The notes below the pieces were generated by a model. It worked only from the letters and a program-made list of their open reading frames with translations, had not been told where the DNA came from and did no database searches. Below are positions 7,206-8,332 of a stretch of 64,000 nucleotides of DNA, in pieces. The stretch is from Acidobacteriaceae bacterium (GTDB lineage: Bacteria; Acidobacteriota; Terriglobia; Bryobacterales; Bryobacteraceae): the NCBI GenBank assembly GCA_020247055.1, contig JADCJL010000172.1, positions 22,524-86,523 of the forward strand. The letters run 5' to 3'. Position 1 is the first letter of the stretch. Every line of letters starts with the position of its first letter. The position numbers and the translations under genes were made by a program.

Positions 7206-8111
7206 ATGGCGAAACTCGGCTTTCTTGGATTGGGCATCATGGGTTACCCCATGGCCCGGCATCTTCTCGACGCGGGGCACGATGTGGCCCTCTGGTCGTT
7301 CTCCCCGGCAAAGGTCACCGACCTGGCCACTGGCCGGTCCAACGCCCGGCCCTGCGCTACTCCGAAAGAGGTTGCGGAAAACGCCGATTGCATCTTCCTG
7401 ATCGTCGGCGATACCGCCATGTCCGAATCGGTCGTCTTCGGCCCCGATGGTCTGCTTGCCGGAGCGAAGCCCGGCACCGTAATCGTCGATGCCTCAACGG
7501 TCGCCCCCGCCTACAGCCGGTCCGCCGCCGAACGTTGCAAAGCCAAGGGTGTCGAGTTTCTCGACGCGCCCTGCACCGGCTCCAAACCCGGCGCCGAAGG
7601 CGGCACCCTCACCTTCATGATTGGTGGCGACCCGAATGTGTTTGCCGCCGTCAAGCCCTACTTCGAGCCCATGGGCAAACAGCTGTACTTCTGCGGCGGA
7701 CCCGGCCTCGGCATGAACGCCAAGCTCACCCAGAATCTGATCCTGTCCAACCTCCTGCAGGCCTTCAACGAAGGCATGGTCCTCGCCACCAAGGCCGGCG
7801 TCGATCCCGACCTCATGGTCGATATCCTCAGCAACTCCGCCGCCCGCAGCGGTCTGATCTCATTTAAAGCCCCCTACGTCTTCCGCCGCGACTTCTCCAC
7901 CAACTTCTCCGTGAAATGGATGCACAAGGACATCGGCCTCATGCTCGACTCGGCCAAAGAGATCGGCGTGCCCCTCCCGCTCACCGCTTTAACCCAGCAA
8001 ATGTTCCAGGCCGCCATCTCCCTCGGCTCCGGCGATGAGGATATCTGTAGCACTATCAAGGTCTTAGAGGGAATCGCCGGTGTTGAGGTCAAGAGCAAGA
8101 CGACGGTATAA
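7206..8111 (+). CDS. NAD(P)-dependent beta-hydroxyacid dehydrogenase (3-hydroxyisobutyrate dehydrogenase family)
   Basis: A 301-residue cytoplasmic oxidoreductase of the 3-hydroxyisobutyrate / tartronate-semialdehyde reductase family. The N-terminal Rossmann motif is 'GFLGLGIMGYPMA', the substrate loop is 'DAPCTGSKPGAEGGTLTF' (about 120-137), and the catalytic lysine lies in 'NAKLTQNL' (about residue 175). The length is normal. Neighbours do not reveal the substrate; it could act on 3-hydroxyisobutyrate, tartronate semialdehyde, glyoxylate or a related semialdehyde. The gene appears monocistronic, with a -10-like box directly before it and an intrinsic terminator overlapping its stop codon. 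Confidence 0.85.
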   Translation: MAKLGFLGLGIMGYPMARHLLDAGHDVALWSFSPAKVTDLATGRSNARPCATPKEVAENADCIFLIVGDTAMSESVVFGPDGLLAGAKPGTVIVDASTVAPAYSRSAAERCKAKGVEFLDAPCTGSKPGAEGGTLTFMIGGDPNVFAAVKPYFEPMGKQLYFCGGPGLGMNAKLTQNLILSNLLQAFNEGMVLATKAGVDPDLMVDILSNSAARSGLISFKAPYVFRRDFSTNFSVKWMHKDIGLMLDSAKEIGVPLPLTALTQQMFQAAISLGSGDEDICSTIKVLEGIAGVEVKSKTTV

Positions 8112-8130
8112 CCCGTCGTCTCCAATTTTT
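8098..8130 (+). terminator. Intrinsic terminator of the dehydrogenase gene
   Basis: A perfect 9-bp stem (AGACGACGG / CCGTCGTCT, 6-base loop) overlaps the stop codon at 8109-8111 and is followed by CCAATTTTT. The short gap before the T run is slightly atypical, but placement and orientation fit a Rho-independent terminator. Confidence 0.7.
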
Positions 8131-8143
8131 CAGAAAAAAACTC

Positions 8144-8172
8144 TTGCGATTCCAAAAATCATATTCTAATAT
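8144..8172 (+). promoter_or_regulatory. Sigma70-type promoter upstream of a putative small RNA or dxr leader
   Basis: TTGCGA at 8144-8149 and TAATAT at 8167-8172 are separated by exactly 17 bases in a locally AT-rich patch. Transcription would start near 8179. This is one of the two best promoters in the window. Confidence 0.6.
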
Positions 8173-8178
8173 TGAAAG

Positions 8179-8268
8179 TAAGACGGGGGGGCAACTCCCA
8201 CCAAAGCGAGACTAACCTCAATATAGACCCCTGAAGCATCCCTCCCGTCGCCCTTCGGGGTTTCTTGT
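8179..8268 (+). ncRNA. Putative structured small RNA or dxr leader RNA
   Basis: The stretch between the promoter at 8144-8172 and a T-rich run at 8261 has no ORF but strong pairing potential. GACGGGGGGG (8182-8191) can pair over 10 bp, one G-U included, with CCCTCCCGTC (8240-8249). The latter lies in the loop of a second hairpin, CCCC-GAAG/CTTC-GGGG (8228-8260, one bulged base), followed by TTTCTTGTCT. The result is a pseudoknot or two competing folds ending in a terminator-like hairpin. It may be a free-standing small RNA of about 90 nt or an attenuating leader for dxr-rseP, which starts about 65 bases later. I do not recognise a known family. Confidence 0.4.
8228..8268 (+). terminator. Terminator-like hairpin at the end of the putative RNA
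   Basis: Stem CCCC-(T)-GAAG with CTTC-GGGG and a 16-base loop, followed by TTTCTTGTCT. The long loop and single bulge make it imperfect, but the GC stem plus T-rich flank fits an intrinsic terminator or attenuator before dxr. Confidence 0.4.
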
Positions 8269-8332
8269 CTCCCGGTGCTTCCTTCCTCCGACCCTCTCCT
8301 AACCGAGTGATACCATAGAGTTGTCTGTTTGG

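Follow-up and report, generated by a model that had tools for sequence, protein, structure and literature searches.

A conserved small RNA gene of the Bryobacterales with a putative spoon-like fold and a C-rich loop

Introduction

The spoon-like small RNA PmaR of Agrobacterium tumefaciens is composed of a long stem and a single-stranded loop in which several C-rich regions contact its targets, and both these targets and their positive regulation have been measured (PMC6234868). Short, unpaired C-rich regions that pair with G-rich sites in mRNAs have also been described for RoxS/RsaE, FsrA, and CsfG of Bacillus and Staphylococcus (PMC8216469). For the Acidobacteria, Acido-1 (RF01686) and Acido-Lenti-1 (RF01687) are listed as structured RNAs for Rfam, and the same listing holds Solibacter-1, a low-confidence RNA candidate in Solibacter usitatus that is not in Rfam (PMC2864571). 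Few small-RNA studies in Acidobacteriota were found among the literature that we searched.

Here we describe a small RNA gene at positions 8144–8266 of a 64,000-nucleotide stretch of DNA from an Acidobacteriaceae bacterium (contig JADCJL010000172.1; hereafter the window). With PmaR, the nearest model for how it may work, the RNA shares a closing stem and a C-rich loop predicted to be largely single-stranded; PmaR is alphaproteobacterial, however, and the comparison concerns how the two may work, not homology. The same holds for RoxS/RsaE, FsrA, and CsfG, which belong to another phylum, differ in sequence, and are likened to the small RNA only in their probable way of working. Acido-1 and Acido-Lenti-1 are non-coding RNA candidates of the same phylum, but the small RNA matches neither model. 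The host of Solibacter-1 is probably a member of the same order, and the two may or may not be one and the same RNA. A first-pass annotation of this DNA had suggested a comparison with Rfam; in Rfam 15, the window RNA (at E values up to 10) and 14 divergent related loci match no family. Nor did a literature search covering few subscription journals return a published description of the small RNA. Unless it should prove to be Solibacter-1, we class it as a new family within a known kind of RNA, the trans-acting small RNAs, with a mechanism that we infer.

6S RNA (RF00013) is likewise small, with ends paired around a large open region. It is ~180 nt long, however, compared with ~86 nt here, and the small RNA has neither the flanking duplexes of 6S RNA nor an Rfam match. 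The identification as 6S RNA was rejected; a separate locus elsewhere in the genome (G000:C241:3741–3869, locus L124), which matches 6S RNA weakly and under the cut-off at 23.3 bits, may encode a divergent 6S RNA of the host.

Results

Architecture of the locus

The small RNA gene lies on the + strand in the gap 5′ of dxr. The upstream gene (7206–8111), whose product we take from its protein sequence (MAKLGFLGLGIMGYPMARHL...) to be 3-hydroxyisobutyrate dehydrogenase-like, is separated from it by a terminator-like hairpin at 8098–8121 (+) that shares bases with the 3′ end of this gene and was scored in the hairpin scan with nine pairs, six of them G-C, followed by a T run. Directly after this terminator, as annotated in the first pass, is a sigma-70-type promoter (8144–8172, +) in which TTGCGA (8144–8149) and TAATAT (8167–8172) are set apart by a 17-base spacer; transcription would be expected to start at about 8179–8181. 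The RNA, of ~86 nt, is thereby placed at 8180–8266 (+), its putative start taken from the promoter and its putative end from a small 3′ hairpin and the T-rich run at 8261–8266, the latter already noted in the first pass. No long reading frame is present from the promoter up to dxr, again in agreement with that annotation; dxr itself begins at ATG 8333 or TTG 8321.

The promoter geometry is retained throughout the relatives. A TTGNNN-(15–19)-TANNNT arrangement that ends 5–14 bases before the closing helix, P1, is found in 161 of 162 distinct copies (4.3 in shuffles), with a spacer of exactly 17 bases in 156 copies and a distance to P1 of 9 bases in 134. ATG is absent from 161 of the 162 copies, and there is thus no conserved reading frame.

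Closing helix, loop, and 3′ end

P1 pairs 8182–8191 with 8240–8249 (both +) in 10 pairs, of which one is G-U in the window copy. The proposal that the first transcribed bases pair in this way is borne out by covariation: across the host's family, the second family of the order, and the divergent candidate G238, two-sided compensatory changes are found at 7 of the 10 pairs and 99% of cells are paired, counts that lean towards P1 as they were made on a model-based alignment (A5) fitted to a model that holds P1. That alignment was used for the divergent copies in place of MAFFT, which misplaced the 3′ arm. P1 looks no different in a plain MAFFT alignment (A1), and controls in which the arms were slid are 50–67% paired over the whole structure. 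When 37 sequences of the family are compared, pairing is complete (100%) at the nine outer positions of P1, four of which show two-sided changes. The 162 copies contain 31 G-U pairs, which would be A-C mismatches on the opposite strand; since they work only on the + strand, this is the strand of the RNA. With covariation in P1 and with 161 of 162 copies free of ATG, the locus has the characteristics of a non-coding, structured, conserved RNA.

P1 closes a loop of ~50 nt. Two blocks in this loop, CUCCCACCAAAGCGAGACUAACCUC and AAAGACCCCUGAAGCA, hardly vary among the copies and are predicted to be largely unpaired. In the window, block A (CUCCCACCAAAGCGAGACUAACCUC) occupies 8195–8219 and block B, delimited as AGACCCCUGAAGCA, occupies 8225–8238 (both +), as defined by alignment columns and by predicted unpaired probability. 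Over 150 copies, this probability is 0.85 for CCCACC, 0.71 for the middle, and 0.43 for CCUC of block A, and 0.73 for block B. The folding energy of the window copy is unremarkable (z = −0.16), so the evidence for the RNA is comparative rather than energetic; for consensus-like copies of relatives, however, folding is more stable than that of shuffled sequences (z = −1.7 and −3.2).

At the 3′ end, the window copy carries a small hairpin, GCCC-UUCG-GGGU (8250–8261, +), followed by UUUCUU, which is likely to be part of termination. In the form GCCC-NNNN-GGG it is paired in 80% of cells in the family and in 73% with the second family included, with a variable tetraloop. A T-rich tail is found in 73 of the 162 copies, compared with 34 in shuffles; a clear T run is limited to about half of the copies, which leaves the position of the 3′ end uncertain. 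The larger hairpin proposed in the first pass for 8228–8260 (CCCCTGAAG/CTTCGGGG) is not conserved: 68% of cells pair and there is no compensatory change, and the arm CTTCGGGG is confined to closer relatives of the host, most relatives carrying instead the small hairpin at 8250–8261. The pseudoknot built on the larger hairpin falls with it, leaving P1 as the conserved helix. The hairpin scan also picked up a smaller hairpin at 8243–8260.

Block B, taken as 8223–8235, resembles positions 2058–2071 of Escherichia coli 23S rRNA (AAAGACCCC(G)UGAA). The 23S stretch in question, AAAGACCCCGUGAA, is universally conserved and lies in the peptidyl transferase centre. The likeness is probably due to chance, as 3.5% of shuffles are as good and this was one of 18 comparisons.

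Distribution and conservation

A DNA search with the spacer that holds the RNA gave matches in 182 of 200 family genomes, representing 71 of 76 genera, with 80–90% identity over 8135–8253; the Dxr protein of the same genomes is ~70% identical between genera. A covariance model, extended with a second family of the order, detects the small RNA in 98 of 102 genomes of the host's family and in 14 of 14 genomes of the second; in a third family of the order, a pattern search finds it in 2 of 2 sampled genomes. Nothing convincing was found beyond the host's family when 347 genomes of the phylum were searched, and in the rest of the class the covariance model yields G238, of family f7, as the only convincing candidate, the other weak matches (E 0.002–0.05) in families of the class not being accepted. 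Among the matches listed for public genomes, almost every named record is one of Bryobacterales, Bryobacteraceae, Solibacteraceae, or unspecified Acidobacteria, and it is from the names on these records that we identify the order as Bryobacterales. Most genomes have one complete copy only.

The alignment of 97 copies reads, from 5′ to 3′, conserved promoter, helix strand, the almost invariant CAACUCCCACCAAAGCGAGACUAACCUC, a variable spacer, AAAGACCCCUGAAGCA, and second helix strand. Across ~70 genera, there is almost no variation in a run of 25 contiguous loop bases or in GACCCCUGAAGCA. The element GACCCCUGA is invariant even in the divergent second family (f2) and in G238. The second family retains CCCACC, CCUC, and GACCCCUGA, whereas the letters between them, including the middle of block A, drift.

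The copy in G238 (L162:2090–2180) is divergent, has paired ends (GCUUGCGGAA/UUCCUAAAGC) together with the GACCCCUGA block, and stands alone in the sample of its family; judged by its sequence, it is a candidate for either a distant homologue or a horizontal transfer. A pattern match in a record labeled 'Euryarchaeota' (L238) is due to chance, as the covariance model does not match it. A search of viral contigs, plasmids, and phages returned no match to the small RNA, and an origin as a mobile or phage element was rejected on this basis.

Several metagenome assemblies break inside the RNA, such that both contig ends carry it (G182 C16/C33, G068 C28/C43, G076 C95/C165, and G050 C110/C164; loci L067, L095, L076, L089, L111, L105, and L170). 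Such breaks probably arise because co-occurring species share this stretch letter for letter.

Relationship to dxr

In most family members, the RNA and dxr share a strand, with the RNA 100–260 bases upstream. A group of genomes from several genera has it on the strand opposite to dxr, and other genomes, including most of the second family, have a copy with no dxr nearby; where dxr is gone, the upstream neighbor is often retained. Most of the second family has the RNA at a new fixed site with other neighbors (L156, L157, L158, L161, and L163), between what we take, from the sequences, to be a cyclase-like gene and a cytochrome-c-like gene. Tandem arrays of two or three RNA copies, each with its own promoter, precede dxr in G100 (L119), G145 (L120), and G088 (L080).

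The dxr gene has an extended −10 of its own, TGATACCAT (8308–8316, +), 17 bases before ATG 8333 and outside the small RNA gene. Of 83 distinct relatives, 67 have the corresponding motif, TGNTANNNT, within −50 to +10 of dxr, about 25 bases before the ATG (3.0 in shuffles). This element sits so near the start codon that, throughout the family, the dxr mRNA is expected to have little or no leader.

The requirement of a dxr cis leader, a position always upstream of dxr and on its strand, is at odds with these placements. What is seen is what would be looked for in a trans-encoded small RNA: its own promoter, independence from its neighbors, and variation in both orientation and neighbors. Read from its genomic placement, the small RNA is a free-standing gene and not a leader of dxr.

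A possible alternative fold

The first-pass annotation had also raised a choice between two folds. The choice that it described is not upheld, since one of its two helices is the unconserved hairpin at 8228–8260, and the sole surviving form of the idea, with weak evidence, is a different hairpin, P1′ (8186–8199, +), in which GGGAG (8186–8190) pairs with an internal CUCCC (8195–8199) across a GCAA loop. P1′ takes the upper half of the 5′ strand of P1 and excludes that half of P1. Every one of the 162 copies can form it with at least four pairs, the loop being GNAA in most, and one of its pairs is changed on both sides, from A-U to G-C, largely in one clade.

Discussion

The segment 8144–8266 is almost certainly a real, conserved RNA gene, to judge from its conservation among relatives. 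The first-pass annotation had entertained a small RNA here, and the conserved promoter, the covarying closing helix, the almost invariant loop, and the order-wide distribution uphold that reading; the feature is larger than that annotation had it. The best overall explanation, to which we give a probability of about 60%, is a spoon-shaped, trans-acting small RNA. A sigma-70-type promoter belonging to the gene itself would drive transcription of an RNA of ~86 nt on the + strand. Its ends pair in the 10-bp, GC-rich P1, which is followed on the 3′ side by a small terminator-like hairpin as a cap. In the spoon shape that results, P1 would hold open a loop of ~50 nt with the unpaired C-rich stretches CUCCCACC, AACCUC, and GACCCCUGA. 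Several mRNAs may be bound at G-rich sites by these exposed blocks, perhaps with the help of Hfq, and their translation or stability would thereby be altered. A clear Hfq is encoded in the host genome (strong match). The analysis shows the gene with its promoter, closing helix, and invariant loop, its retention across the order, and its independence from dxr; transcription itself, the exact ends, base pairing with mRNAs, and the involvement of Hfq are what we infer.

That the small RNA works by pairing with mRNAs is the slightly favored reading of its loop, and the retention of the C-rich parts in the second family while the letters between them drift fits pairing sites. The RNA probably regulates genes other than dxr. 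At the dxr start, block A pairs no better than shuffles; block B has a slight advantage, with only 1 of 20 shuffles reaching as low a value, but this complementarity is unconvincing because the coding start of dxr is itself conserved. Nor is there support for a general anti-Shine-Dalgarno action: among 296 predicted genes of one relative, the loop blocks showed no advantage over composition-matched shuffled blocks in pairing with translation starts. In 41 genomes, no antisense partner of block A was found beyond the gene itself and scattered matches with two or three mismatches.

The near-perfect conservation of 25 contiguous loop bases goes beyond the requirements of most pairing seeds, and protein binding could be the reason for it. 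The small RNA might then be a structured decoy or co-factor, as 6S RNA or Ms1 is with RNA polymerase, with the invariant loop as the binding site. The invariance of GACCCCUGAAGCA, the lack of anti-Shine-Dalgarno enrichment, and the finding of only a weak, sub-threshold 6S match elsewhere in the genome speak for such a role; to judge from sequence and folds, however, the RNA is too short for 6S RNA and is without the duplex that flanks its central bulge, it matches no Rfam family, and the drift in the middle of block A beside stable C-rich parts is what pairing sites would show. We regard protein binding as unlikely. Rather less probable still is a core, order-wide RNA of new function, in which the near-invariant loop would bind a protein or the translation machinery while P1 and P1′ alternate, each exposing one of two CUCCC segments.

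A two-state RNA is improbable. Its 5′ G-run would pair either with the 3′ arm, in P1, or with the internal CUCCC, in P1′, so that the switch exposes CUCCC or CCUCCCC and activity is gated by a partner or by co-transcriptional folding. The presence of a formable P1′ in every copy and the pair altered on both sides are as expected for such a switch, but P1 is far stronger in folding, it is largely a single clade that supports P1′, and the 5′ strand of P1′ is already constrained by P1. The leader, attenuator, or riboswitch of dxr–rseP that the first-pass annotation had proposed fits the usual position of the RNA 5′ of dxr and its terminator-like 3′ element, but is largely refuted, and very improbable, given the opposite-strand, distant, and tandem copies and the extended −10 of dxr downstream of the RNA.

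The locus offers deletion, RNA-seq, and pull-down studies a precise target of 86 nt, and the covariance model (R2) can be used for annotation. Acidobacteriota are abundant in soils, and their small RNAs are little covered in the literature searched. The presence of this RNA in nearly all sampled members of the order, with a sequence more conserved than the adjacent core enzyme, suggests that this RNA, whether a regulator or a core RNA, matters generally to the group.
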